Shown in pieces: positions 47,811-62,200 of a stretch of 64,000 nt of DNA. The notes below the pieces were generated by a model. It saw only the letters and a list, made by a program, of their open reading frames with translations. It had not been told where the DNA came from and made no database searches. Position numbers and translations under genes: made by a program. The stretch comes from Phycisphaerae bacterium. Lineage in GTDB: Bacteria > Planctomycetota > Phycisphaerae > UBA1845 > UTPLA1. The stretch is taken from the NCBI GenBank assembly GCA_019636475.1, contig JAHBXN010000005.1:248001-312000 (forward strand), in the 5' to 3' direction. The first letter of the stretch is position 1, and every line of letters begins with the position of its first letter.

Positions 47811-48137
47811 TTACTTTCCGGAGATCGGATCGACAAATCCGGCCATCGGGTTGTCATGCGTGGTAATGACCGGCAAGAGCAAAAGGACGACGAAGAACAG
47901 GCCACACAGCGCGAGAATCCAGTAGAGCATCCCGCGCTCGGTAAGAAGGTGCATGAAATAGCATGCGACCAAAGTACCTTTGATCGACGCTACAAAAAGC
48001 GCGATCACAATGCCCGCCAGGATGCCGACATCCAGATAGGCCACACCGACGGTCACGCCCGTCAGGACGAGCAGCGCGCCGAATACCATCATGTAGAGCT
48101 GAACGTGTTTCTTGATTTCCGCAGCGGTAGAGCCCAT
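47811..48137 (-). CDS. Cytochrome c oxidase subunit IV family protein
   Basis: The 108-residue protein has three membrane helices and the family pattern of bacterial subunit IV/CoxD-type proteins, including IALFVASIKGTLVACYFMHL, whose K-x5-YFMHL segment is characteristic. It is a small structural subunit with no redox centre. It sits directly after subunit III with an 18-base gap. Confidence 0.9.
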   Translation of the reverse strand: MGSTAAEIKKHVQLYMMVFGALLVLTGVTVGVAYLDVGILAGIVIALFVASIKGTLVACYFMHLLTERGMLYWILALCGLFFVVLLLLPVITTHDNPMAGFVDPISGK

Positions 48138-48155: not shown

Positions 48156-49055
48156 TTAGAGGAGGTACAACACGGGGAACAGAAAAATCCAGACGAGGTC
48201 GACAAAGTGCCAATACAGGCCGGTACACTCGACCCGATTCACCAGCTTATCCGGAGAGCGCTTCCACCAGCCGGACGCTGTGAGATAAAGATAGAGGATG
48301 ACAACCATGCCGCCAAGAATGTGGAGGCCGTGCAGCGCCGTCAGCGTAAAGTAGATTCCGAGGAAGGTGCTTGCCTGCGGACCCCAGACCGAGATTCGCT
48401 TGATCAACGAACGATCGATCAGAATCGGATCGTGTGAGCCTGCGGCGTGCGCGTCCGCGGCATGTGATTCAGATTTCGCGCCGTGAGGGGCCTTTACCGG
48501 ATCCGGCACGATCTTGACGTAATCCTGCTCCTCGTTGTTCTCGGTGACGTGTCCGTTCACATACCAGAGATCGCGCTCGCCGGCGTTCGTCTGAACGGTC
48601 AGGTGACCGACGGCCTTTTTCAGTGAGTCATCGCTCGGCGCTTCACGCAGAACAATGTGATGGTGCGTGAGCTTCGACTTGTATTCGAAGTACTTCACCA
48701 CCATGAAAGTGCCGGCAAGCAGGAATGTCACGAGCAGATACATGCGGCCCTTGCCCAGCTCGCCGACCTTCAATGCGGCCCACGCCAGCACCATCGTCAC
48801 GGACGATGTGATGAGCACAACCGTGTTCAGCGTGGCCAGCGGTACGTTCAGTACTTCGTGCCCGTGCACGGACGGTGCGCCGTAGATCGGCCACGTTCCG
48901 GGCGCAGCCCCGACGCGAAGCAGCACGTACGTGCTGAATAGCGCGCCGAAGAGCATGATTTCCGAAGCAAGGAACAGCCAGATGCCGAACTTGCCGTTGT
49001 ACATCCGTGTGAGCGGATGAGGTTCAATATCGTGTGGAATCGGAATATCGGACAA
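48156..49055 (-). CDS. ctaE: Cytochrome c oxidase subunit III with a long His-rich loop
   Basis: The 299-residue protein has the subunit III pattern: KFGIWLFLASEIMLFG, KYFEYKSKL, ALHGLHILGGM and YWHFVDLVWIFLF. Between the KYFEYKSKL segment and the next helix is a loop of about 90 residues (about 130-220), including the His-rich SESHAADAHAAGSHD. This is longer than in standard subunits, where these parts lie close together. The start is TTG 49055, favoured by GGAGG 8 bases upstream inside the end of the subunit I gene. No close ATG exists before the first helix. Confidence 0.92.
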   Translation of the reverse strand: MSDIPIPHDIEPHPLTRMYNGKFGIWLFLASEIMLFGALFSTYVLLRVGAAPGTWPIYGAPSVHGHEVLNVPLATLNTVVLITSSVTMVLAWAALKVGELGKGRMYLLVTFLLAGTFMVVKYFEYKSKLTHHHIVLREAPSDDSLKKAVGHLTVQTNAGERDLWYVNGHVTENNEEQDYVKIVPDPVKAPHGAKSESHAADAHAAGSHDPILIDRSLIKRISVWGPQASTFLGIYFTLTALHGLHILGGMVVILYLYLTASGWWKRSPDKLVNRVECTGLYWHFVDLVWIFLFPVLYLL

Positions 49056-49058
49056 CGG

Positions 49059-50849
49059 CTATGCCTCCATCTTTCCGGCTTGCATGCAGAAATCGCGCGT
49101 TTCGCCGGGAACACTGTACTCATACGGCCCGCAGCACACGACGGGCGTGCCGATGAAATTGCCGTGAGGCGGGGGCGACGGAGCCGACCATTCAAGCGTC
49201 GTCGCCTCCCAGGGATTCGCGCCGACTTTTTTGCCGGCGAAGATGCTCCAGAAGAAATTGATGATGAAAGGAATCTGAGCCGCCCCCAGAAGCCAGGCGG
49301 ACCATGATGACATGACAGTGAGCCCGTGAACGGCCGCTCCATGCAGCTGTTCTGTCTGATCGAATTGCCGACGCAGGACGCCCGCCATTCCCATGAAGAA
49401 CATCGGCATAAAGATGCCGTTCATCGCGACAAACGACGGCCAGAAGTGGAGTTGCCCCAGCGTCTCGCTCATTCGGCGACCCGTAACCTTCGGAAACCAG
49501 AAATAGACGCCGGCCAGCAATGCGAAGACGGTGCCGGGCGCGACGACATAATGGAAATGCCCGATGACATAGTACGTGTCGTGCAGATGGATATCAGAGG
49601 CCGTCAACCCAAGGGGCAGTCCGGTCAGTCCGCCGATCGCAAACATGGGCAGGAAGGCGAGCGCGAAAAGCATGGGTGTATTGAACCGCATCGCGGCACC
49701 CCAGAGGCTGATGATCAGGCACGTCAGGATGATGACGGACGGTACTGAAATGATCATCGTTGTGGCCTGGAAGAAAGTGCTGAGCGTTGTTCCCATCCCG
49801 GTCATGAACATGTGGTGCGCCCACACGATGAACGACATGAATCCGAGAAAGATCGCTGAATAGACAAGCGACTTGTAGCCCCACAGCGGCTTTCGGGTGT
49901 TGTTGGCCACGACCTCCGAGACGATTCCCATCGCAGGAAGAATCAGCACATACACTTCGGGATGAGCCAGGAACCAGAACAGGTGCTGCCAAAGCAGCGG
50001 ACTGCCGCCGCCCGCGAGTTGATCCTGTACGACGGACGAGACCACCAACCCCGAGGGCATGAAAAAGCTCGTCCCCGCGAGGCGATCCATCAATTGCAGA
50101 ACACCGGCGGCCTCGAGCGGCGGAAATGCAAGCAGAAGCAGGAAAGATGTAATCAACTGAGCCCACACGAAGAACGGCAGGCGGAAGAATGAAAGACCCT
50201 TCACGCGGAGTTGCACGACCGTGACAATGAAATTAATCGAACCCAGCAGCGACGATGTGATGATCAGCACCATCGCAAGGAGCCACCATGTTTCACCGTT
50301 CTTGGCCGTCACAGATAGCGGCGGATAAGACGTCCAGCCGGATGCCGCTGCGCCGCCGGGCATGAAGAAGCTGGCGAGCATCAGCAGCGCGCCCGGGAGG
50401 AAGATCCAGTAGCTCAACATATTGAGTCGAGGAAATGCCATGTCCGGCGCGCCCACCTGTAACGGCAGGACGAAATTGCCGAAACCGCCGACGGCAAGCG
50501 GCACGACGCCAAGAAAGATCATGATCGTGCCGTGCATCGCTCCCAGGGCGTTGTATCCGTCTCCGGTCAGAATGAAGCCGCCGCCGAGTTCCGCCGGCAA
50601 GGCACCCACGAGGGTCCCGCCCAGGAACTGACCGATGAATGGGATCGGCTGGTTCGGGTAGGCGAGCTGCCACCGCATGATCATCATCAGGCAGAAACCG
50701 AAGAACAGACACGCCAGCGCCGTGACCGTGTATTGAACCCCGATGACCTTGTGGTCTACCGAGAATATGTACTTTCGCCAGAACGGCAGATCATGACCGT
50801 GGTCATGGGCATGATCGTGGCCTGGCGCGTGTGCATGAGCATTTGCCAT
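49059..50849 (-). CDS. ctaD: Cytochrome c oxidase subunit I (haem-copper oxidase, A-family-like, K-channel lysine absent)
   Basis: The 596-residue protein holds haem a, haem a3 and CuB. His ligands are H106, H431 and H433 for the haems and H296, H345, H346 for CuB, with the crosslink tyrosine Y300 in HPEVY. D-channel residues corresponding to bovine D91, N80, N98 and E242 are present (D136, N125, N143, E298). At the position of bovine K319, the essential K-channel lysine, there is Ile (I374 in PSVIILTC), and T316 is Ser. The N-terminal 20 residues are His-rich (HAHAPGHDHAHDHGHD). Start ATG 50847-50849; upstream frame not supported. O2 reduction is the likely activity. Confidence 0.95.
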   Translation of the reverse strand: MANAHAHAPGHDHAHDHGHDLPFWRKYIFSVDHKVIGVQYTVTALACLFFGFCLMMIMRWQLAYPNQPIPFIGQFLGGTLVGALPAELGGGFILTGDGYNALGAMHGTIMIFLGVVPLAVGGFGNFVLPLQVGAPDMAFPRLNMLSYWIFLPGALLMLASFFMPGGAAASGWTSYPPLSVTAKNGETWWLLAMVLIITSSLLGSINFIVTVVQLRVKGLSFFRLPFFVWAQLITSFLLLLAFPPLEAAGVLQLMDRLAGTSFFMPSGLVVSSVVQDQLAGGGSPLLWQHLFWFLAHPEVYVLILPAMGIVSEVVANNTRKPLWGYKSLVYSAIFLGFMSFIVWAHHMFMTGMGTTLSTFFQATTMIISVPSVIILTCLIISLWGAAMRFNTPMLFALAFLPMFAIGGLTGLPLGLTASDIHLHDTYYVIGHFHYVVAPGTVFALLAGVYFWFPKVTGRRMSETLGQLHFWPSFVAMNGIFMPMFFMGMAGVLRRQFDQTEQLHGAAVHGLTVMSSWSAWLLGAAQIPFIINFFWSIFAGKKVGANPWEATTLEWSAPSPPPHGNFIGTPVVCCGPYEYSVPGETRDFCMQAGKMEA

Positions 50850-50880
50850 TTTGAATTTCCCTGGACAACCAGAAACGTGA

Positions 50881-51888
50881 TCAGAAATCGCCGCCGAAAT
50901 CAATCTCGACCGGTGTGGACCGCTCTTTCACCCATGCATCGAAGCCGGCGGCATCGTGCGTGATAATCTGAGCCTTCATCTTGAAATGACTGTTGCCGCA
51001 AAGTTGGGCGCAGATCACTTCGAGCGGGTTGCGCGGCTGCAGCTTGATTCGCTCCACACCCGCCGCACGCAGGTCGTCGATCAGCTTGGTGCCGTCAGTA
51101 TGCGTCGAGCCAAGGTCCGAACCCTTCGCCAGAATGATCTGCCCGGACTTGTCACGATAATCCTCGCAGGAAACATGGTGCCGCAGCTTGTACCATGTGG
51201 CCGACGCCGTGTCGTACTCCTGCGTCATTTCCTCCTTGAGCTTTTCGGTCGTCGCGCCTTCCTTCACCTTGAACCAGACAGGCACTTCCATGCCGGGTAT
51301 GGCATCCTGCTTAACACGCATGGTCGGAATGGCAAACGAATGAATCACGTCCTTCGAAGTGATCCGAACATTGATATCGCGGCCCGTCGGAATGTGAAAC
51401 TCATTGATGGTCTGGATGTCATCGGCGGCATTCGGGTCTGCTTCGTCAAGACCAATCGGATTTGTGCCGGTAATGAACTTCGAATCAGTCCGGCCGAATT
51501 TACCGTCCGGGCCAGGGTAATGGAAATCCCATTGGAACTGTTCGCCGATTACGCGAACCTCGAGCATATTCGTCGGATCCGGCGGCGGATTCTTGTATTC
51601 AGCCCAGACAGGCATCGAGAGACCGACGAGCAGGAACACTTCGAACGCACCGACGGCAACCTCCGCATACTTTGATGCCTTGCCGCTAACCGGTTCGTAG
51701 ATGGCGCGATGGCCTTCCCGCTTCCGGAAGCGGATCAATGTATACAGGAAAAAAATGCCCCAACCGACAAACAAGGCAAACATGAAGTAATGCACAACAT
51801 CGATGAGATGGTCGATTCGATGGCCGTGCTCCGAGAGTTGGGGCGGCAACCAGCGTCCGTAGGTGCCGAAGTTGAACGAGGCGAGCAT
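50881..51888 (-). CDS. ctaC: Cytochrome c oxidase subunit II with CuA site and insertion
   Basis: The 335-residue protein has two N-terminal helices and a CuA cupredoxin domain. CuA ligands are H183 (DVIHSF), C293, C297, H301 and M304 (in CAQLCGNSHFKM); the backbone-ligand Glu is replaced by Gln. About 75 extra residues (about 210-286) separate the first His from the Cys pair, compared with about 35 residues in classical subunits. This insert contains KLRHHVSCEDYRD. It accepts electrons from a cytochrome or cupredoxin. Start ATG 51886-51888 with GGAGA upstream. No membrane lipid anchor is evident. The 280 bases upstream show no gene. Confidence 0.94.
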   Translation of the reverse strand: MLASFNFGTYGRWLPPQLSEHGHRIDHLIDVVHYFMFALFVGWGIFFLYTLIRFRKREGHRAIYEPVSGKASKYAEVAVGAFEVFLLVGLSMPVWAEYKNPPPDPTNMLEVRVIGEQFQWDFHYPGPDGKFGRTDSKFITGTNPIGLDEADPNAADDIQTINEFHIPTGRDINVRITSKDVIHSFAIPTMRVKQDAIPGMEVPVWFKVKEGATTEKLKEEMTQEYDTASATWYKLRHHVSCEDYRDKSGQIILAKGSDLGSTHTDGTKLIDDLRAAGVERIKLQPRNPLEVICAQLCGNSHFKMKAQIITHDAAGFDAWVKERSTPVEIDFGGDF

Positions 51889-52168
51889 TTTGCAGAACTC
51901 TCCAGGATTGACGGTTTTCCGCCCGCTCGCGGAATCCGACGTCAATCCGCCGGTATTTTCACAAACTCTAAGGATGACATTCGATCCTCCGACCGCGCCG
52001 ATTGGAGGATCATCGGCCTGCATAACGAGCCATCGCGCCGGATTCCGGCGACACACGCCCGACCAGCCTGCCGACCGATCTCGAGAAGATTTCGATCGGG
52101 ATCGCGGATCCGCGACGGGCTCGAACCGCATTCCTGCTATTCAAGCCGCGCCGCAGTACATGCGCGAT

Positions 52169-53080
52169 TTACTTGGCAACGTCAACCGCCGGCTTCGAAT
52201 CGTGGCAATTCACGGTTTCCGATTTGTCCCGGCAGCAATCTGACGTAGACGCACCATTGGTATTCGAAGCCGTAATCTCGACTTCACGGAAAGTCGGCGC
52301 GAGCGCCTTCTTGCCGCCGATCTTGACTTCAATTTCCTTGGTTTCGCCGTCCTTGACTTCAACTTCCTGCTTCACGACGCCGAACGTCTCATGCCAAAAT
52401 TCGAGCTCGAACTTGCCCGCGGGAAGATCCTTGATTTCGAAGGTTCCACGCTTGGCCTTGTCGCCGCCGTCACTCTCGTGGGATACGGTGACCGCAAAGA
52501 AAGGGTGTGCGACCACGCCGACGTAAGCCGCCATCCAACCGTGAACGTCGCACTTGATCTTGACGATTTCCGGCTTCGAGAAGGTCTCCTTGCCGCGAAG
52601 CTCCTTCTTCATGTCCTTATTCGGCTGCGCAAAATTGAACTGCGGATTCTTCTTCGCCAGCGAGTGAATGTTGTGATTGACAGGATCGCTATTGACGATG
52701 TCAATTCCCTGGCCGGCCACCATTCCCATTACATGCGGGTGGTACACGCAGCCCTGCTGGTCGAGGACAACCGGCGTCTCCGGGGCGTCATACTTGTCGT
52801 CGATACCCTTGGTGATCTGGATGAAGACGTATGGAACCGCGTTGCCTTCGCTCGCGTACACGATCAGCGATTGATCCGGAACCGCCTTTGGATTCTCTTT
52901 CTCGCACGTCGCATCTGCCTTCATCGCGAGTGGCTTGACCTTCGGCGCTGTCACCGAAGGATCGAGGACCACTTTGCCCTTGATCACGGCCGTGCCCTTT
53001 TTCCCATCCGCGAACGCTGGCGCGACAGCCAGAGCCGCAACTGAACAGGCCATCACCCACGTCAACATTTTTTTTGTCAT
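52169..53080 (-). CDS. Periplasmic cupredoxin with C-terminal beta-sandwich
   Basis: The 303-residue protein has a clear signal peptide ending AFADG. Blue-copper ligands are likely H136 or H139 (NSDPVNHNIH), C177, H180 and M183 (KCDVHGWM), the classical C-x2-H-x2-M loop. Residues about 210-260 (GTFEIKDLPAGKFELEFWHE) look like a carboxypeptidase-regulatory or CnaB beta-sandwich. The C-terminal 30 residues are Cys-rich (DCCRDKSETVNCHD). It sits between the eight-haem cytochrome and oxidase subunit II genes, so it plausibly carries electrons between them. GGAG 9 bases before ATG 53080 supports the start. Gaps of 187 and 280 bases on either side allow separate promoters. Confidence 0.85.
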   Translation of the reverse strand: MTKKMLTWVMACSVAALAVAPAFADGKKGTAVIKGKVVLDPSVTAPKVKPLAMKADATCEKENPKAVPDQSLIVYASEGNAVPYVFIQITKGIDDKYDAPETPVVLDQQGCVYHPHVMGMVAGQGIDIVNSDPVNHNIHSLAKKNPQFNFAQPNKDMKKELRGKETFSKPEIVKIKCDVHGWMAAYVGVVAHPFFAVTVSHESDGGDKAKRGTFEIKDLPAGKFELEFWHETFGVVKQEVEVKDGETKEIEVKIGGKKALAPTFREVEITASNTNGASTSDCCRDKSETVNCHDSKPAVDVAK

Positions 53081-53267: not shown

Positions 53268-56200
53268 TTAACGATCGAAGTCGAATTCGACATCCTGATC
53301 TTTTTTCTCGGAACCCCCTGAATCGAAATCAAACTCCATGTCCGACTGGTCGGTCGATTCCGTGCCTTTTTCCGCAGCGCCCGGCTGAATCGCCGTGTAT
53401 TTCCGTTCACCCAGCGCGAAAAGGAAATCCACGAGCAGATGTGCCTGATCCTCGATCGACTTGCCGAAGAGCTTTTCCTTCTCTGTGCGTATTTCCTCAG
53501 GGAGCGAAGCGTACGCATTGCCGCCCTGGAAGATCTGCGGCATGTTGGCTCCGGGCTGAATGGATTGCGGATCCTGCAGCCACTTCACAATCCAATCATA
53601 GCGCAATCGCCTGTAGGACAGCGCGAAGTTCGGCGCCTTGATCTCGGTGGTCGTGCCCGGGACAGTCGGGTCTCCACCCACGTGACAGGCCAGACATTTC
53701 TGGTCGTAAAAGAACTGCTCACCGAGCTTGAATCGCTCGTCGCTGATCGTGTGCGACCGGAGATCATTGTATGGGTACTGAACTCCGAACAGCTCGGCAA
53801 GGAAATCGGCGCGTCCGATTGCCTTCTTGAAAGCATCGTCGAGCGTCTGCGCCACCTGATCTGCGTCGTCGTCCGGCGATGTGACGAACTCAAACGGATT
53901 GGACTGCTTGTGCCGAACCGCGTAGCTCTTGAGAAATCGAGCAGACTCCGCAAACTTGTCCTCTTCAAACCAGTGCGGATTCATCGTCGATGCCGCCCCG
54001 CCTGAGTGGACATCCCGGAGATAACGTGCAATCGGCTTGATCCTGCCTCGAAGCAGATCGGCCTCGGATTCGCTCAGACCGGCAAAATACTCGACCAGCG
54101 TCGTCGCTTCCTCCGTCGTAAGGTGGAAGCTTGGCATGCGGGCAATCAACCACGGACGAAGCATCTCGACATTGTTAAGAAACCGGAACAGCCAGTCGTA
54201 TTGAACCTTCGCACCCTCGCCCCAGAGCAGCGGCGGCCGGAAGCGGACGCTGTACCTGATGCTGTCGCTGAGGCCCGGATCCTCGGAGTAGTACTGATGA
54301 ATCGTGGCTTCCTGATCGGCTTCGATCGTGTGGCAGCCGATGCAGTTCAATTCGTGCGCCAGTTCCCGGCCGCGAGCAATTCGACCGACCGGCGTGCCAT
54401 CATACGCAATCTTCACGGCAGGACGAACGTCCGGATCGCGCCGACTCAGCACATAAGTCGTGAGCGCCCGAGCCTCGGCCTCAGTGAAGAAGTAGTTCGG
54501 CATCTTAAGTTTTTCATAGGGCTTCTTGATCTTTTCACGATCCCAGATGCGAGGATTGCGAAGCTTGTGATAGGCGAACGCGGCATGGTTGTGAACAATC
54601 TGCTGAGGGATATTTCCGCTCGTCGGAATCGCGCCGGCAGATCCACTGAGCAGATCGTCCGCCGTCTCGCCGATGTCGCGAATCAGGTGCGAGAATTCGA
54701 CCTTGTCCTGTGATGTGGTGCTCAAGTAGAGATTGCCAAACACCTCGGGCTTCAGTTCGTGATCGTGTTCGAACACAGGGGAGAAGAACGCAAAGTCGAG
54801 CTGACTGATGAACTTCTGCGCCCAGGTCGACAATTCAGTGCCGGGGCGTGTGGCATCTTCGAAGCCGGCGATGGTGTGGCATGCGTAGCAGCCGTAGTGG
54901 CTGATCATTTTCATGCCGAAATAGAGCTGCTGTCGCTCCCGGAGCGAACCCGCCTGCGAGTCGATAAGGTGCGCCACGCGACGCCGTCCTTCCTCGCCGA
55001 CCCCAAACGACGAGGCCGTCTGAGCGACGATCGCGCGCGTGAGCGGCCCAAACTCGTCGGACGGGTCCGCCTTCTCGTCGGACAGAATTCGATTCGATAC
55101 GGCTTCGGTGTTCTGACCCGAGAGTAGCATCAGGATGAGGCGATTCATTTCCGCCTCATGTTCAGGCGTCATCGCAAACGGCTCGGTCTTGAAGTCGTCG
55201 TTGCGCAATGACAGCAGATAGGCAACGACATCCATGATGTCCTGATCGTTGCGTTTCTTCTGCTCCGCGGGCGGTAGATCCTGGTAGTAATTGTCCCGGA
55301 ACATCCGGGGCATCACGGTGTAGGACGAATAATGCCGCGGGTCTGACAGCCAGTTGTAGAGCCAGGTCTTGCCCCGTTCCACCTGCGCAGCATCGTTCGG
55401 ATCGTTGACCAGCTTTGTGCCCAAGCCGGAAAGTTCAGGACCATGACGGGTGAATTCCGGCGGAACATACGTCTTGAAAGGATCAGGATCGCGCGATTCA
55501 TTGTCCGCCAGGAACAGTTCCGTCTTTGCCGCCAGTCGGGCCTTGTCGCGGCGGTGCCGGTCAAATCGACGGGAGGCATACCGCGCGCGGTCATTCTTGG
55601 ACATCCGTTCGAACGCGGCCTTCGCTTCTGCCATGGCCGCATCGATGAAGCCCTGCTTCTCTTCGACGCTGGGCTCACGCCCCTGCGATATCATGCCGGC
55701 CGCTTGTTTCTCGGCTTCCGCCATGGCGATGTCCGTGACGATCCAATTCTCGCCGATGGTTCGGCCTTCGGAATCGGCGGAATCCTTCGCTTCCAGATCG
55801 ACGTGACAAGCGAGACAGCCGATCGACGTGAGCAACTCCTCACCACGGGCGGGATCCCCTTCGACCCCATCCGGCAAAGGCAAGGCGTCGAACGGCTTCG
55901 AGAACACTTTCAGGTAGTGGGCCATCGCCTTGATTTCGGTCTCGGTTCGCAACTCCGGATGCGGGTCGAAATCGGCGTTGGCGCTCGACTGGGTATTATT
56001 CTCCTGATGGAAGAAATGCGGCATTCGCGTCGACGGGCGGAAATTATTCGGATAATCGACCCATCGCTCGATGAATCCCGTCGAAAGTTTGCTGCCGACA
56101 TGCGTCAAGTCCGTCCCGACGCGCCGAGACTCAGACAAGCCCTCGACGTTGTGACAGTTAATGCAGCCGACCCGCGTGAACAGGTCGCGACCCTTGACGA

Positions 56201-57839
56201 CATTGGATGCATCTTGCAGCGGTTCGGTCTCGTGCCGTTCAAGGTCATACACCTGATCATGGCACTTTACACAACTGGCGGAGGTATACTTCGACAGCAA
56301 CATCGGCCGTTCCCAGAATTCCTCCACGATGTGGAATGTCGAAAGCGGAAGGCCCAGTTCCTTGACATAATACTTCTTCGCCCATTCCTTCTTCTGAGCG
56401 GAATTCGCGGGCATATGCGCCGCGAGGATGAAATCCGTATCGCGACCGGAGCCCTCGTGGCAGACTGTGCAGCCCATTTTCTTCATCGGGTGCGGCGAAT
56501 TGGGCGACACGAACAGGTCCAATCGTGGATGCGCCGCCAATACCGGCTGGAACTCAGCGGGTGGACGCCGGCCGTCCACGGCCTTGGAGAGGTAAAGATT
56601 CATCGCGGCCGTCAGACTCTTGAAGTAATCATCCTGCTGCCGGGGCGTCATTTCGCCATAGCTCAGAGTCCGCGAACTGTTGCCGGACTTCAATTCAGGC
56701 CGCGCCGCCGCGAGAATCCGGCGAAATGCCTTTTCGATCTCGGACTGAACCCTGCCCCGATCGGGCGCTTCAGTTGTGAAAGCGGCTTGAATTTCCGCGG
56801 CTGGAATTAACGGACGATTCGTTTCTTCAAGAAAAATATTTGCGGCATTGACAAATGCGTTGACAAACTTGTTCGCATCCACTTCCGGGGGTGGAGGTTT
56901 GACATCCGCCAGTCGAACGGCCAACGTCGCCACCATCGCTTCATTCTTGTCGCGAAGATTCTCCGCGACGATCGAAGACTTGAGCGCGTCTTCCGCCTGT
57001 TTGATGTAGTTTTCCTTGCTGAAAGTCGGATCGTCGATCGCGAAGTGACAGGTTATGCAGCGATCGGTCGCGTGCGAATCGGTGAAGTTGTAATTGACGC
57101 GAATGTCGGGCATGAAGACCTGTTTAATCTCTTCACGACCCGGCGTGTCCTTCGTTGGGAAGGCATCCAGAATCGGCAGATTGAGCAGCGTACGAATGAC
57201 GCCCGGGCCGAACATCTTGTCGCGATATTTCGCGTCCGCTTCACCCTTCTGGTCGGAACCGAGCGCGCGTTTCGCGGCCGTGAGCTTCGCGTGAATGGAC
57301 TTCAGTTCAGTGTGCTTTTCGCGAAGCGCATCTTCCAGCTTGTCCTTCTCGGCTTTCAGCGACTGAATGGCGTTGATTTCCCGCTCATATTGGTCAGCGA
57401 CCTTCCGGGTTTCCGGATGGGACTGCCCGTACACCATTTTCTTTTCTTCAAGCAGAAACGCAGTCACGCCGAGTTCGGCGTTGCGATTTCCATAGGTCAG
57501 CGAAACGCCCTGGAGTCGGCCCTCCAGCTCGCGTGCACTGCCTTCGAGTTCGCTGATTCGCGCCTTGAGTTCGGGTGCCGCCAGTTCGGCCTCCGCATCG
57601 GCGACGGCCTTTTCGAGTTGCTGGCGTCGCGCCCGGGCTTCGTCGGTCTGGTAGGAAAGCGCCGTAAAATGGGCCAGCGCGGAGCGGACGTTGCTGTACT
57701 CAACTTGGATGTCGCGCCACGGACGCTTGTAGTCGTGCCACATCATCCATGCGAACGAGATCAGCGCGATCAGAGATGCGACACCGAACCATACATTGAG
57801 TCGCCTGATATTCCAGAGCGTGTCAGTCGTAACGGGCAT
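53268..57839 (-). CDS. Giant multihaem (eight CxxCH) membrane-anchored cytochrome c
   Basis: The 1,523-residue protein has one N-terminal membrane helix (about 15-33), then a coiled-coil region (about 45-195). Eight haem-binding motifs follow: residues 261-265 (CITCH), 457-461, 523-527, 559-563, 675-679, 984-988, 1166-1170 and 1382-1386. Methionine-rich segments such as TRMPHFFHQ, VMPRMFRDN, ARMPSFHL and NMPQIFQ downstream of several motifs look like distal ligands, so it reads as a chain of class I-like cytochrome domains. The tail repeats EFDFD twice at the extreme C-terminus. It lies between cytochrome b genes and the cupredoxin/oxidase genes and is the likely electron carrier between the two complexes. 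Confidence 0.93.
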   Translation of the reverse strand: MPVTTDTLWNIRRLNVWFGVASLIALISFAWMMWHDYKRPWRDIQVEYSNVRSALAHFTALSYQTDEARARRQQLEKAVADAEAELAAPELKARISELEGSARELEGRLQGVSLTYGNRNAELGVTAFLLEEKKMVYGQSHPETRKVADQYEREINAIQSLKAEKDKLEDALREKHTELKSIHAKLTAAKRALGSDQKGEADAKYRDKMFGPGVIRTLLNLPILDAFPTKDTPGREEIKQVFMPDIRVNYNFTDSHATDRCITCHFAIDDPTFSKENYIKQAEDALKSSIVAENLRDKNEAMVATLAVRLADVKPPPPEVDANKFVNAFVNAANIFLEETNRPLIPAAEIQAAFTTEAPDRGRVQSEIEKAFRRILAAARPELKSGNSSRTLSYGEMTPRQQDDYFKSLTAAMNLYLSKAVDGRRPPAEFQPVLAAHPRLDLFVSPNSPHPMKKMGCTVCHEGSGRDTDFILAAHMPANSAQKKEWAKKYYVKELGLPLSTFHIVEEFWERPMLLSKYTSASCVKCHDQVYDLERHETEPLQDASNVVKGRDLFTRVGCINCHNVEGLSESRRVGTDLTHVGSKLSTGFIERWVDYPNNFRPSTRMPHFFHQENNTQSSANADFDPHPELRTETEIKAMAHYLKVFSKPFDALPLPDGVEGDPARGEELLTSIGCLACHVDLEAKDSADSEGRTIGENWIVTDIAMAEAEKQAAGMISQGREPSVEEKQGFIDAAMAEAKAAFERMSKNDRARYASRRFDRHRRDKARLAAKTELFLADNESRDPDPFKTYVPPEFTRHGPELSGLGTKLVNDPNDAAQVERGKTWLYNWLSDPRHYSSYTVMPRMFRDNYYQDLPPAEQKKRNDQDIMDVVAYLLSLRNDDFKTEPFAMTPEHEAEMNRLILMLLSGQNTEAVSNRILSDEKADPSDEFGPLTRAIVAQTASSFGVGEEGRRRVAHLIDSQAGSLRERQQLYFGMKMISHYGCYACHTIAGFEDATRPGTELSTWAQKFISQLDFAFFSPVFEHDHELKPEVFGNLYLSTTSQDKVEFSHLIRDIGETADDLLSGSAGAIPTSGNIPQQIVHNHAAFAYHKLRNPRIWDREKIKKPYEKLKMPNYFFTEAEARALTTYVLSRRDPDVRPAVKIAYDGTPVGRIARGRELAHELNCIGCHTIEADQEATIHQYYSEDPGLSDSIRYSVRFRPPLLWGEGAKVQYDWLFRFLNNVEMLRPWLIARMPSFHLTTEEATTLVEYFAGLSESEADLLRGRIKPIARYLRDVHSGGAASTMNPHWFEEDKFAESARFLKSYAVRHKQSNPFEFVTSPDDDADQVAQTLDDAFKKAIGRADFLAELFGVQYPYNDLRSHTISDERFKLGEQFFYDQKCLACHVGGDPTVPGTTTEIKAPNFALSYRRLRYDWIVKWLQDPQSIQPGANMPQIFQGGNAYASLPEEIRTEKEKLFGKSIEDQAHLLVDFLFALGERKYTAIQPGAAEKGTESTDQSDMEFDFDSGGSEKKDQDVEFDFDR

Positions 57840-57872: not shown

Positions 57873-59117
57873 TCAAACGTTGAAGAACCACTCCGTCTGA
57901 GCGAGGAAGTACTTCAAATTGAAGCCCCAGCGCAAAACCATTTTTATCGGGACGATGAACATCCAACTCATCAGAATCCAGAACACGCTGAATCGGATGA
58001 ATCCGATGTCGCGATAGATCTTCTTGAAGAATGTGGCAGCCAGAAGTCCGGGGAGCACGAAGAAATAGGTCCCGAGAAGCACCCATCCCGGCGCCTCGCG
58101 CACCAGGTAACCGGGTATGCCGAGGAAAGACTCCGTCGGCAGGCCCGGCTTCCACCAGCTCACGTCAAGCCACGACGGCAGAACCACCCAGAACAAGTCC
58201 GAGACATTCACGTTCAGCAGCGCGGCCGGTCGATGCGGATCCCATGTTTCATAAGGACCGAAGATGTTCCAGTTCGGCCCCCGGAGAAACGTGCCGAGCA
58301 CAATGAGAACGATCCACATGATCGCCCAGCCGAACATGAACATCGAGATGACAAACTTGCGTTCCTTGAACGTGTAGTAGCCGTTGCCTCGCGGGTTCTT
58401 GTCGATATAAGGTAGCGCGACCAACCCGAAGATAATCAGGAGCGGCAGAAGAACGCCGGCGATCCACGGATCGAAATAGACCAGCAGTTCCTGCAGGCCG
58501 AGAAAGTACCACGGCGCCTTGGAAGGGTTCGGAATATTGGTCGGATTCGCGGCCGGTTCGAGCGGCGCTTTCAGAATGATCGCCCATACGACCAGCAGCA
58601 CACTGCACAGGATCATGCAGATCAATTCGGTATAGACGAGGTCCGGCCAGACCAGAACCTTGTCATCCGCGCCGCTTTCGATGAGCGGTTCACCCCGCTC
58701 CATCCGCTCATCGTTGATTGCCGCCTGGCGGAAGCCGACCCACGTCACGAGCGCCGTCGCGACCAGCATGATCGTGATGGGCACGTTGTCCGGCTTCGTA
58801 ATGATCTTGGCGAAATTCTCGTCGAAAGCGCTCCAGACATAGAACGCCACACAAAAAAGGCCGATCATCGCGGCGACCCGTGGCCGGGTCCATCGCCGAT
58901 AGGCGACCAGCGAGATGATGAGCAGGACGATGGTGGCGGTAACGAAGTACTTCGGATCGCTCCACTCGTTAAGCTTTCGCTTGATGAGCTCGCCGAGTCC
59001 GCCCTCGTTCGTCGCCGCCAGCAGGTTATGGAGATTCATTCTCATCACAGGTTGACTCGTTCCGAAAGCCTGGGAAACTCGCTCCGCGTCACGTCGCGCG
59101 AAGGTCGCCTGTGCCAT
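57873..59117 (-). CDS. Cytochrome b C-terminal-domain (subunit IV-like) protein with N-terminal extension
   Basis: The 414-residue protein has about 7-8 membrane helices. Residues about 155-260 correspond to the C-terminal part of cytochrome b/subunit IV, with WPDLVYTEL and NPSKAPWYFLGLQELL, the last an APWY version of the PEWY motif at the quinol-oxidation site. The N-terminal 130 residues add two or three extra helices not present in chloroplast subunit IV. The C-terminal 130 residues add further helices and end NLKYFLAQTEWFF. It follows the cytochrome b6-like gene after 3 bases. Start ATG 59117 is used; internal Met at residues 26 or 28 is possible. Confidence 0.88.
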   Translation of the reverse strand: MAQATFARRDAERVSQAFGTSQPVMRMNLHNLLAATNEGGLGELIKRKLNEWSDPKYFVTATIVLLIISLVAYRRWTRPRVAAMIGLFCVAFYVWSAFDENFAKIITKPDNVPITIMLVATALVTWVGFRQAAINDERMERGEPLIESGADDKVLVWPDLVYTELICMILCSVLLVVWAIILKAPLEPAANPTNIPNPSKAPWYFLGLQELLVYFDPWIAGVLLPLLIIFGLVALPYIDKNPRGNGYYTFKERKFVISMFMFGWAIMWIVLIVLGTFLRGPNWNIFGPYETWDPHRPAALLNVNVSDLFWVVLPSWLDVSWWKPGLPTESFLGIPGYLVREAPGWVLLGTYFFVLPGLLAATFFKKIYRDIGFIRFSVFWILMSWMFIVPIKMVLRWGFNLKYFLAQTEWFFNV

Positions 59118-59120
59118 GCA

Positions 59121-59906
59121 CTACAGCGGTCCGGAGATGCCTCCATCCTTCCGGATTCGCCAGAAGTGCACAGCAATCAGCACGGCAACGACCAGCGGAA
59201 TAAAGATGCAATGCAGAACATAGAATCGGAGCAGCGCGCCGGGGCCCACCGACGTGCCGCCGAGCAGCAGAAATCTTGCGTCGGAGCCCGCATGAATCAG
59301 GGGAATATCCCCGATCATCAGGAGCGATGACCCCGGACCTTCATGACCAAGAAACGGATGCGCGCGAGCCATGTTGGAACCAACCGTAATGGCCCAGATC
59401 GCCAACTGATCCCACGGAAGCAGATAGCCCGTGAATGAGAGCAGGAGCGTAAGGACCAGCAACACCACCCCGACACCCCAGTTGAATTCACGGGGCGGTT
59501 TGTAGCTACCGGTCAGAAAGACGCGCAGCATGTGCAGCCAGATTGCGATGACCATCGCATGCGCGCCCCAGCGATGAATCTCGCGAAGCAATCCGAGCGT
59601 CACCGTGGCTCGCAGCTCGAGAATATCCGAATAGGCGTACTCAACCACCGGGCGGTAGTAGAACATCAATAGAACGCCCGTGATCGTCTCCGCCAGAAAC
59701 AGGAAGAACGTCAGTCCGCCCATACACCAGGTGAAGGACAGACGAATACCGCTCTTGCGAACCGCCACCGGATGCAGGTGCAGAAATACGTTGCTGAGAA
59801 TGGCCATCGCGCGGGTGCGACGATCGCGCGGAATGCCGTGGCGGAAAATGGAGCCCCAGATCTGGCTCCCCCGTATGTATTCACCGACTGAGTTAAACAG
59901 ACTCAT
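59121..59906 (-). CDS. Cytochrome b6-like protein (di-haem cytochrome b, N-terminal domain)
   Basis: The 261-residue protein has four membrane helices and two pairs of haem-binding His: H111 and H125 ([15 protein letters not shown]) and H232 and H247. The 14 and 15-residue spacings match cytochrome b6 rather than mitochondrial cytochrome b (14 and 14). [17 protein letters not shown] is also typical. It carries electrons across the membrane between quinone sites. The ATG at 59904-59906 is chosen because [11 protein letters not shown] is the usual start for this type; the open frame 30 codons upstream has no homology. Confidence 0.94.
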
Positions 59907-60023
59907 CAATCGCTTCCAGTAACAATGGCCGGAACTCGTCAACGCCGTGACCGAGGCCGGGTGTTGTGCCTGCGCCGCGGCCAAGTTGACTCCCAACCGG
60001 CCGCCCCGTGCTGAATCCTGTCG

Positions 60024-61082
60024 CTATGCGGGAATGTACGCCTCCGGATCATTCCATACCGCGAGGTCATTGGGGCCCATCGCGAGGAATTTCTTCGATC
60101 GATCGACGATCACTTCGTCGCCGTCGACATAGATCTTGAATCGCTCCAGCGGTCGCGGAGCAGGGCCCTCGAAGTTGACGCCGTTCGCCTTGAAGCCGCT
60201 GCCATGACACGGGCACTTGAACTTTCGATCGTTCGGCAGCCATGAAGGAATGCAACCGAGGTGCGTGCAGATGATCGACATGGCAACGATTCGATCCTCT
60301 TCCCGAACAATCCAGAAGCCGCTGGGTTTCTCCGGCTTGAAATCCTCGTTAACATCTCCGGGAGCCATCGCCAAGTACTTCGAGAGTGCGCCGCAGCGCA
60401 CCTTCGGATCCGGCACTTCCAGAACGTTCGGTGCCATGAAACGGGCAAACTCGAGCGTGCTGCCGCCACCCACCACAAGCATCGACGCCCAACCTGCGGC
60501 GACCATGATATCGCGTCGGGTCGGCTCGCCTTCCGGCTTTTGCGGCTTCGACTTCTCGAGCATCCGCTGTTGCCGCGCATCCGGGGGCAACTGGTCGATC
60601 GGCAGTTTGGCGAGTTGCTTCACGCCATCGGGCGCATCCTTCGTTCCCGAATGAATCACGGCATGTCCGCCGCGAACCGTCGTCGCCGCAAGCAGAGCCT
60701 GAATGGCCGGATCGACCACCTTTGGCTTGGGCGGTGCCGCAACCTTCGCAGCAGGCTTGGCCGCGGCCGCAGGCGCATGTCCGGCTTCAGCCGGCTGCGC
60801 GGGCTTGCCGGCCGTTGGCGCCGGTGCCCCCGGCGCATCATCCGCCACTTCGACCGCAACGGTCTCGAATTTGATCACATCGACCGGGCACTCTTCCGCA
60901 GCCTGTACGATCAGCTCGCTGCGCGGCTTGGTGAATTCAACTTCCAGCGCCGCCGGGCGAATGATGCAGGTGTTGTTTTCGTGCTGGACTTCAAAGACGT
61001 CTGGCGCGGTGGTCTCGCACGCATCGCATACAATGCAGCCCGGGGCAATCCACACCTTCGTGACGAGTTGCTTCGTGGCCAT
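60024..61082 (-). CDS. Ferredoxin-Rieske iron-sulfur fusion protein
   Basis: The 352-residue chain has three parts. Residues 1-75 form a [4Fe-4S] ferredoxin-type domain with C16, C19, C22 and C65 (CIVCDAC and CPVDVI). Residues 76-185 are an Ala/Pro/Lys-rich linker. Residues 186-352 are a Rieske subunit with a twin-arginine signal-anchor (TRRDIMVAAGW, about 189-215) and the [2Fe-2S] ligands C272, H274, C290 and H293 (CTHLGC, CPCHGSGF). The ferredoxin would lie in the cytoplasm and the Rieske domain outside. The ATG at 61080-61082 overlaps the upstream gene as TGATG. It is the Rieske subunit of the adjacent cytochrome b complex. Confidence 0.93.
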   Translation of the reverse strand: MATKQLVTKVWIAPGCIVCDACETTAPDVFEVQHENNTCIIRPAALEVEFTKPRSELIVQAAEECPVDVIKFETVAVEVADDAPGAPAPTAGKPAQPAEAGHAPAAAAKPAAKVAAPPKPKVVDPAIQALLAATTVRGGHAVIHSGTKDAPDGVKQLAKLPIDQLPPDARQQRMLEKSKPQKPEGEPTRRDIMVAAGWASMLVVGGGSTLEFARFMAPNVLEVPDPKVRCGALSKYLAMAPGDVNEDFKPEKPSGFWIVREEDRIVAMSIICTHLGCIPSWLPNDRKFKCPCHGSGFKANGVNFEGPAPRPLERFKIYVDGDEVIVDRSKKFLAMGPNDLAVWNDPEAYIPA

Positions 61083-62200
61083 CAACACCCCTCGCCGATG
61101 CGGGCGACGCGCGTCACCGCCGACCGCCGACTTTCGCCATTGGCATTCTTCTCAAGCACCATTCGAGCCGCCTCCCGAACCTGAATCGCGGAATCCTGAT
61201 CGCGTAACTTCTGAATCAGCGACTGCACGTCCGAATCGCCAAGATACGAGGCGGACAAGATTGCTCCGCACAATCGGTCATTCACTTCGCTTGCTGAAAG
61301 CCGTCGCAACACCCGGCCGCCGCCCTCCACGTAATCCAGGTCGAGCCGTTCCCAGAAACCGCGATCCAGCATATTCATCAGGATCAGCTTGCCGCGCGGA
61401 CTGCCAAGCTTGGCCAGTGCGGCCGCCGCGTTCCACTGTTCCTCGCGGTCTCCTTCCAGCAGCGTTGCCACCTCTCGAATCGGCCGGTCTGCGCCGCGGT
61501 CCGCAAGAGAGGCTACGGTCAGACACGACACAATCCGCACCGCGACATCCGGATCCCGCAGCAGCGGATACACCTGATCGATCGACGCCCGAGCCGCCGG
61601 CAGTTTGTCCATCATCGAGAGCGCTTGCAGCGCCACCCGGCGAGTCGTGGCGTTCGAATGCCGCAGAAGTTCCACAATCGCCGGCACGGCCTTCGGCGTC
61701 TGAAGCCGGGCCAGGGCGAGAATAAGGAAATGATCCCGCTTCTCGCCTTTTCGCTCTTTCTCAGTCACAGCCGTCGCCGGGGCAGCGATTGAAAAAGACT
61801 TCAAAGCCGCAATCACTCGATCGGCCGCGGCTTCCGCCTCAGCCTCGTCCTTGAAATCGCGCCGTTCAAACCGATTCGCGAGTTCCTGTGCCGCCTGCCA
61901 GGACTCCTTCGCAGCCGGCAGGAGCATCAGGCCTTCGCGATCGCCGCTGTCGGCCTCGATCACGCGCATCAGTTCGCTCACCGTCGCCGGCTGATCAATG
62001 CTCGACGTGCCGAACATCACGACCAGAACCGCTGCTCCGAGCATGAGACACACCACGATCGCCGGCACGACAAAGAGCTTGCCGGCAAGCGTCGCCACGG
62101 ACGGCGGCGCGCTCGACGAAACCGGACGAACGCCCTCCATCGAGGATCCGTAGCTCTCCGAATCAGCAGAGTTTACATGTGATTCCGAATGTTGCGACAT
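61082..62200 (-). CDS. Membrane-anchored HEAT-repeat protein
   Basis: The 372-residue protein has a Ser-rich N-terminus, one membrane helix at about 41-64 (LFVVPAIVVCLMLGAAVLVVM), and an alpha-solenoid of HEAT/PBS-like repeats from about 130 to 350. Typical units are AVPAIVELLRHSNATTRRVALQALS and SVIREVATLLEG-like spacing with DPDVAVRI. No catalytic motif is visible. It is the first gene of the respiratory locus, stop-overlapping the ferredoxin-Rieske start. A scaffold or assembly role for the complex is inferred. Confidence 0.82.
   Translation of the reverse strand: MSQHSESHVNSADSESYGSSMEGVRPVSSSAPPSVATLAGKLFVVPAIVVCLMLGAAVLVVMFGTSSIDQPATVSELMRVIEADSGDREGLMLLPAAKESWQAAQELANRFERRDFKDEAEAEAAADRVIAALKSFSIAAPATAVTEKERKGEKRDHFLILALARLQTPKAVPAIVELLRHSNATTRRVALQALSMMDKLPAARASIDQVYPLLRDPDVAVRIVSCLTVASLADRGADRPIREVATLLEGDREEQWNAAAALAKLGSPRGKLILMNMLDRGFWERLDLDYVEGGGRVLRRLSASEVNDRLCGAILSASYLGDSDVQSLIQKLRDQDSAIQVREAARMVLEKNANGESRRSAVTRVARIGEGC

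Follow-up and report, generated by a model that had tools for sequence, protein, structure and literature searches.

We found that a 1,523-residue octahaem c-type cytochrome, encoded in a 64,000-nucleotide stretch of DNA from a Phycisphaerae bacterium (hereafter the window), is quite probably the c-subunit of a planctomycete b6f-like complex. Comparison of sequences and gene order suggests that this protein replaces cytochrome c1 or f and is wired through a cupredoxin to an adjacent aa3-type oxidase. The complex III of non-anammox planctomycetes has been little studied; here, a b6f-like complex with an octahaem c-subunit appears across the phylum, often beside an aa3-type oxidase. Planctomycete Rieske/cytochrome b complexes have reportedly been reviewed by Baymann et al. 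(2012), ten Brink et al. (2013) and Dibrova et al. (2013).

The octahaem gene lies within a ten-gene Rieske/cytochrome b and oxidase cluster

The octahaem gene is the fifth of ten genes that share one strand, and this gene order recurs within the window's own family and among named Phycisphaerae MAGs. The genes are, in order:

61082..62200, minus strand: membrane-anchored HEAT-repeat protein, first cluster gene (HEAT_2 2e-11; one hydrophobic segment)
60024..61088, minus strand: Rieske protein with N-terminal single-cluster ferredoxin domain at 60870-61037 (PF00355 1.9e-9, PF13370 1.1e-7)
59121..59996, minus strand: cytochrome b6-like subunit (PF00033 8e-39; true start probably M31, at 59906)
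57873..59117, minus strand: subunit-IV-like cytochrome b C-terminal protein (PF00032 1.5e-5, ExtQ-like 6e-17)
53268..57839, minus strand: octahaem c-type cytochrome, very likely the c-subunit of the Rieske/cytochrome b complex (1,523 aa ORF)
52169..53080, minus strand: cupredoxin-like protein with a C-x2-H-x2-M motif and a carboxypeptidase-regulatory-like beta-sandwich
50881..52131, minus strand: oxidase subunit II, CuA motif CAQLCGNSHFKM (PF00116 2e-11; N-terminus probably over-extended)
49059..50903, minus strand: oxidase subunit I (PF00115 5e-131)
48156..49055, minus strand: oxidase subunit III (PF00510 2e-18)
47811..48137, minus strand: oxidase subunit IV (PF03626 2e-12)

The Rieske protein carries the [2Fe-2S] motif CTHLGC...CPCHGS. 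In the cytochrome b, the two haem-ligating pairs H141, H155, H262 and H277 are invariant in all complete sequences, and the FTWCMGG motif includes Cys91, present in 39/42 homologues, which we take to be the b6 cysteine for haem cn/ci. The subunit-IV-like protein has eight hydrophobic segments, and thus extra membrane helices, as well as the Qo-region motif KAPWYFLGLQE. Oxidase subunit II has CuA and no cytochrome c domain. Given this composition, the octahaem protein would take the place of cytochrome c1 or f within a b6f-like complex, and it probably delivers electrons to the oxidase. That it is a subunit of such a complex we consider very likely. The gene for the HEAT-repeat membrane protein opens the Rieske/b block, a position that is conserved.

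A 2024 survey found the bc1 complex in no Phycisphaerales genome, with alternative complex III encoded instead (PMC11266412). A b6f-like complex with a split cytochrome b and without c1 could be missed by searches for bc1. The source genome also encodes an NrfD-type protein, possibly of an alternative complex III. On another of its contigs (C17, locus L095, 7015-10926) is a second Rieske/cytochrome b cluster, whose cytochrome b has 493 aa and which also encodes a separate cytochrome of 542 aa carrying eight CxxCH motifs.

Architecture of the octahaem cytochrome

The octahaem ORF begins with ATG and is the same intact gene in the whole source genome. The first-pass annotation had described a chain far larger than cytochrome c1 or f, with a membrane helix, about 150 residues of coiled coil and eight CxxCH motifs, and this description held. 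All eight motifs were found in the 1,523-residue ORF, on the minus strand, at residues 261, 457, 523, 559, 675, 984, 1166 and 1382. They account for 16/16 cysteines of what is a multi-domain electron-transfer c-type cytochrome; by chance, 0.005 motifs are expected, and never more than one appeared in 20,000 shuffles. Two features precede the haem sites:

57729..57809, minus strand: N-terminal membrane helix (residues ~11-37, predicted as a helix by AF2 with low local confidence)
57210..57722, minus strand: coiled-coil stalk (helices 40-137 and 142-210; AF2 local pLDDT ~59-92, mostly >70)

Residues 16-34, near the N-terminus, form the sole hydrophobic segment of the protein (hydropathy maximum 1.85). 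The predicted coiled coil is slightly longer than first described, at ~170 residues, and SMC-type coiled-coil profiles match residues 54-193.

Beyond the stalk, Pfam cytochrome c7/c3/MtrC-type matches overlap residues 450-567, the MtrC/MtrF-like one being weak. A PDB sequence search with the cytochrome returned weak class-I matches only (best E 0.018). Foldseek with the N-terminal AF2 model gave no match at E <0.001, and the matches listed were mostly generic coiled coils (SMC, JetABC), which carry no hint as to function. In AF2 models of both protein halves the haem regions were of low confidence, with many blocks at pLDDT 24-50, because only seven sequences were usable. The protein ends in an acidic C-terminal tail with EFDFD repeats (53271-53350, minus strand), and the tail is acidic in most close relatives (D/E runs in L039-L041) and missing from more distant ones.

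Eight haems, each with a candidate distal ligand

The alignment took in 44 full-length homologues, 945-1,991 aa long: the window protein, 24 others of its class and 19 planctomycete sequences from outside that class. Inclusion required full length with eight motifs, which left out the truncated L056 (six motifs) and L132 (seven). Exactly eight CxxCH motifs were present in 44/44. The only other histidines and methionines invariant across all 44 were H437, H450, H475, M606, M843, M1113, M1235 and M1433, from which we propose that haems 1-3 are bis-His and haems 4-8 class-I-like His/Met:

57045..57059, minus strand: haem 1 CITCH (261), proposed bis-His, invariant 44/44
56457..56471, minus strand: haem 2 CTVCH (457), proposed bis-His, invariant 44/44
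56415..56531, minus strand: segment with candidate distal histidines H437, H450 and H475, each 44/44
56259..56273, minus strand: haem 3 CVKCH (523), proposed bis-His, invariant 44/44
56151..56165, minus strand: haem 4 CINCH (559), candidate distal Met606 (56022-56024), invariant 44/44
55803..55817, minus strand: haem 5 CLACH (675), candidate distal Met843 (55311-55313), invariant 44/44
54876..54890, minus strand: haem 6 CYACH (984), candidate distal Met1113 (54501-54503), invariant 44/44
54330..54344, minus strand: haem 7 CIGCH (1166), candidate distal Met1235 (54135-54137), invariant 44/44
53682..53696, minus strand: haem 8 CLACH (1382), candidate distal Met1433 (53541-53543), invariant 44/44

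M513 was also considered as a ligand of haem 3 and rejected, being conserved in 38/44 only. A helical insert of ~100 residues separates the haem 5 motif from Met843 in the AF2 model. Across the homologues, length varies twofold while the haem count stays constant at eight, which suggests that the protein has been enlarged by inserts between haem modules.

The same alignment amends two claims of the first-pass annotation. It had each CxxCH followed by a Met-containing segment, which stands for haems 4-8, with their invariant methionines, and not for haems 1-3, where invariant histidines are the candidates instead. It had also pictured a string of monohaem domains; five class-I-like His/Met domains fit that picture, whereas haems 1-3 have the look of a clustered bis-His module. 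Together with the c7/c3/MtrC-type matches, this suggests that monohaem domains in a string are only part of the protein.

With eight candidate distal ligands, every one of the eight haems would have a sixth ligand, which argues for an electron carrier and not an enzyme. Most probably, then, the octahaem protein is a carrier, with no haem apparently catalytic. Eight haems could also suggest a multihaem enzyme, such as a nitrite or hydroxylamine reductase/oxidase like octahaem HAO/Onr, given that octahaem proteins resembling HAO have been reported from Phycisphaerae (PMC11266412) and that the anammox R/b-3 complex contains one (PMC12954380). However, no HAO-type Pfam or NCBIfam entry matched the protein, five haems are class-I-like His/Met, and one invariant candidate distal ligand per haem leaves no open catalytic site. 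We rejected the HAO/Onr reading, on the lack of an HAO-type match and the ligand for every haem, as very improbable.

Spread of the octahaem protein across Planctomycetota and its co-occurrence with a cytochrome b

In a profile search carried out within the Planctomycetota, octahaem homologues (E <= 1e-30) were found in 138/392 sampled genomes. To relate them to the cytochrome b we used a sample of 150 genomes of the source class. A strong octahaem match was present in 21/150, and 20 of these 21 also had the matching cytochrome b (64-100% identity); in the remaining one, the contig ends inside the cluster. None of the sample's genomes without a strong octahaem match had the matching cytochrome b. 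Among more distant planctomycetes, the Rieske, b, subunit IV and octahaem genes were clustered at 16/20 fetched loci, and at several of those 20 the cupredoxin and coxB/coxA genes also adjoin. At L043, L044 and L047 the cluster is split, with the Rieske/b genes in one block and the octahaem, cupredoxin and cox genes in another.

These patterns bear on whether the protein might be a free-standing long-range conductor for extracellular electron transfer, unrelated to a quinol-oxidising complex. Its size, its haem number and the weak MtrC/MtrF-like match at 450-567 could be read in that way. Against this are the N-terminal membrane anchor, the operon shared with Rieske/b genes and the presence of that cytochrome b in 20/21 genomes with a strong octahaem match; moreover, no porin or lipoprotein partner was seen in the cluster. 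An extracellular wire is thus hardly credible, and we rejected it on the anchor, the operon and the co-occurrence.

Two side observations concern related loci. At L118 (13156-14646), L119 (5146-6588), L120 (3405-4802) and L127 (13673-15400), a 465-575 aa protein with two CxxCH motifs is encoded between cupredoxin and coxB. L050 (5235-10310) holds another bc-type cluster, with a short Rieske protein, a 542-aa fused cytochrome b and a 978-aa cytochrome; the latter has 10 CxxCH motifs and scored 39 bits, and we excluded it from the octahaem family.

A cupredoxin provides a proposed route to the oxidase

The C-x2-H-x2-M motif of the cupredoxin has a spacing that presumably resembles that of amicyanin. 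In three class members, a long linker joins a fused cupredoxin domain to the octahaem C-terminus (E 1e-68 to 1e-84), with the motif kept (residues 1770-1989 in L043, 1650-1861 in L047 and 1745-1964 in L048). L043 and L047 retain a separate cupredoxin gene besides the fused domain. This fusion and the gene order support a path from the octahaem protein through the cupredoxin to CuA, and delivery of electrons to the adjacent oxidase is accordingly likely, as judged from sequence. Such delivery is not universal, since the coupling proposed for the anammox members is to other acceptors. We set aside the absence of a soluble cytochrome c as evidence; the PF13442 search of the source genome missed even the octahaem protein's own domain.

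No oxidase gene was found nearby at octahaem loci L037, L040, L046 and L048. That the two are unlinked in some relatives (L037, L040, L046) would suit a Rieske/b subunit acting as a general periplasmic electron hub, which reduces a number of soluble carriers or reductases and is not tied to the oxidase by a fixed physical link. The source genome does have other haem-copper oxidase-family genes, and other acceptors are proposed for anammox relatives of the complex (PMC12954380). Yet linkage to the oxidase and cupredoxin recurs across distant planctomycete families, and the cupredoxin fusion argues for a dedicated path, so that a hub is the unlikely alternative to a subunit wired to the oxidase.

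For the oxidase-linked subunit we infer the following path. Quinol would be oxidised at the cytochrome b/subunit IV pair, and the Rieske cluster would pass electrons to that part of the octahaem protein which lies near the membrane. From there they would hop across haems of both kinds, bis-His and His/Met, as far as the cupredoxin, and this in turn would reduce CuA in the adjacent aa3-type oxidase. As for the coiled-coil stalk, it would clasp the complex and not conduct, as do the long helices of the anammox protein Kustd1485 in a published AlphaFold3 model.

Relationship to the anammox R/b-2 complex

The R/b-2 complex of Kuenenia stuttgartiensis (Kustd1480-1485) is b6f-like and includes a cytochrome of six or eight haems; the larger of these, Kustd1485, has long helices wrapping halfway round the complex (PMC12954380). 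Two loci in our set, L121 and L122, come from anammox bacteria, with HZS_alpha in both genomes. The L122 genes run Rieske, cytochrome b, NAD(P) oxidoreductase-like, subunit IV and a 954-aa octahaem cytochrome. The latter matched the window family at 506 bits by profile and 1.6e-30 by BLASTP, with identical ligand columns, and the L122 Rieske protein aligned with PDB 9rk3 (Kustd1480) without gaps over all 117 residues, most of them identical. The likeness of this Rieske protein to Kustd1480, with an octahaem gene in the same cluster, would place Kustd1485 and the window protein in one family. On this Rieske neighbour and HZS_alpha, from which the identity of L122 is taken, Kustd1485 almost certainly belongs there.

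The window protein is thus a large, oxidase-linked relative of Kustd1485. Both are octahaem c-subunits with a transmembrane helix and long helices, and both would belong to b6f-like complexes with an enlarged subunit IV and a cytochrome b of four helices, a number presumed for the window. The L121 and L122 homologues share the same eight haem motifs and eight candidate ligands with the window protein; they are ~950 aa in length, whereas the window protein, at 1,523 aa, has helical inserts at an equal haem count. At L122 an NAD(P) oxidoreductase-like gene is present and no oxidase adjoins the complex, while the window cluster has the ferredoxin-Rieske fusion, the cupredoxin and the aa3-type oxidase, and the NAD(P) oxidoreductase is absent from it. 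The NAD(P) oxidoreductase belongs to the anammox complex and does not characterise the octahaem protein.

As to whether the architecture had already been described as a subunit of a characterised complex, which the first-pass annotation had left to be checked, this is so in part: Kustd1485 is a published octahaem relative, in a complex that was modelled, its structure not solved and its function unproven (PMC12954380).

The ferredoxin-Rieske fusion was present in 24/24 sequences examined from the class and in 0/18 from planctomycetes outside it, among them the anammox group. The cytoplasmic side of the anammox complex is thought to carry an NAD(P) oxidoreductase, and the AlphaFold3 model of Kustd1481 assigns His62, Arg266 and Lys267 to an extra inter-dimer haem (PMC12954380). 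These residues match the L122 numbering exactly, and their window equivalents are H73 (42/42), R282 (41/41) and K283 (40/41). Such conservation motivates, and does not establish, a ferredoxin-linked role in electron bifurcation. Here, the complex would be an electron-bifurcating III-IV machine, in which the high-potential electron of each quinol reaches the aa3 oxidase through the octahaem arm and the cupredoxin, and the low-potential electron travels via the b haems and inter-dimer haem to the Rieske-fused ferredoxin domain on the cytoplasmic side. This domain would make reduced ferredoxin, or accept electrons from it, and so take the place of the anammox NAD(P) oxidoreductase. We regard this as a quite unlikely, speculative extension; the class-specific fusion makes bifurcation outside anammox directly testable.

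Comparison with other known systems

The only described relative of the octahaem protein is that of the anammox Rieske/b complex (PMC12954380). As far as the searchable literature shows, what is new here is the phylum-wide spread in oxidase-linked clusters, the ligand scheme, the haem-neutral inserts, the cupredoxin fusion and the class-specific ferredoxin-Rieske fusion. The analysis supplies a testable ligand map for eight haems, a proposed route that leads from the octahaem protein by way of the cupredoxin to CuA, and, for the puzzling R/b-2 complex of anammox bacteria, a counterpart linked to an oxidase.

For the neighbouring genes, not for the octahaem protein, the closest named families are the NCBIfam b-type cytochromes ExtP and ExtQ of selenite/tellurite reduction operons, both of them sub-threshold: the cytochrome b scored 261 bits against ExtP (cut-off 290) and subunit IV 62 bits against ExtQ (cut-off 150). 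Cytochromes f and c1 would be the positional and functional equivalents of the octahaem protein, although they are monohaem and a fraction of its size, and no c1 or f family appeared among its Pfam and NCBIfam matches. QcrC, the dihaem cytochrome cc of the actinobacterial III2IV2 supercomplex, is likewise a Rieske/b c-subunit, and passes electrons directly to an aa3-type oxidase (PMC8361435). Its profile (NF050122) matched octahaem residues 539-693, which span two class-I-like domains, at 35.7 bits (6e-9), a score that does not reach the cut-off of 200 bits. Unlike the window protein, QcrC has two haems and is without a coiled coil, bis-His module or cupredoxin. By analogy with QcrC, the planctomycete Rieske/b complex and its oxidase may form a III-IV supercomplex.
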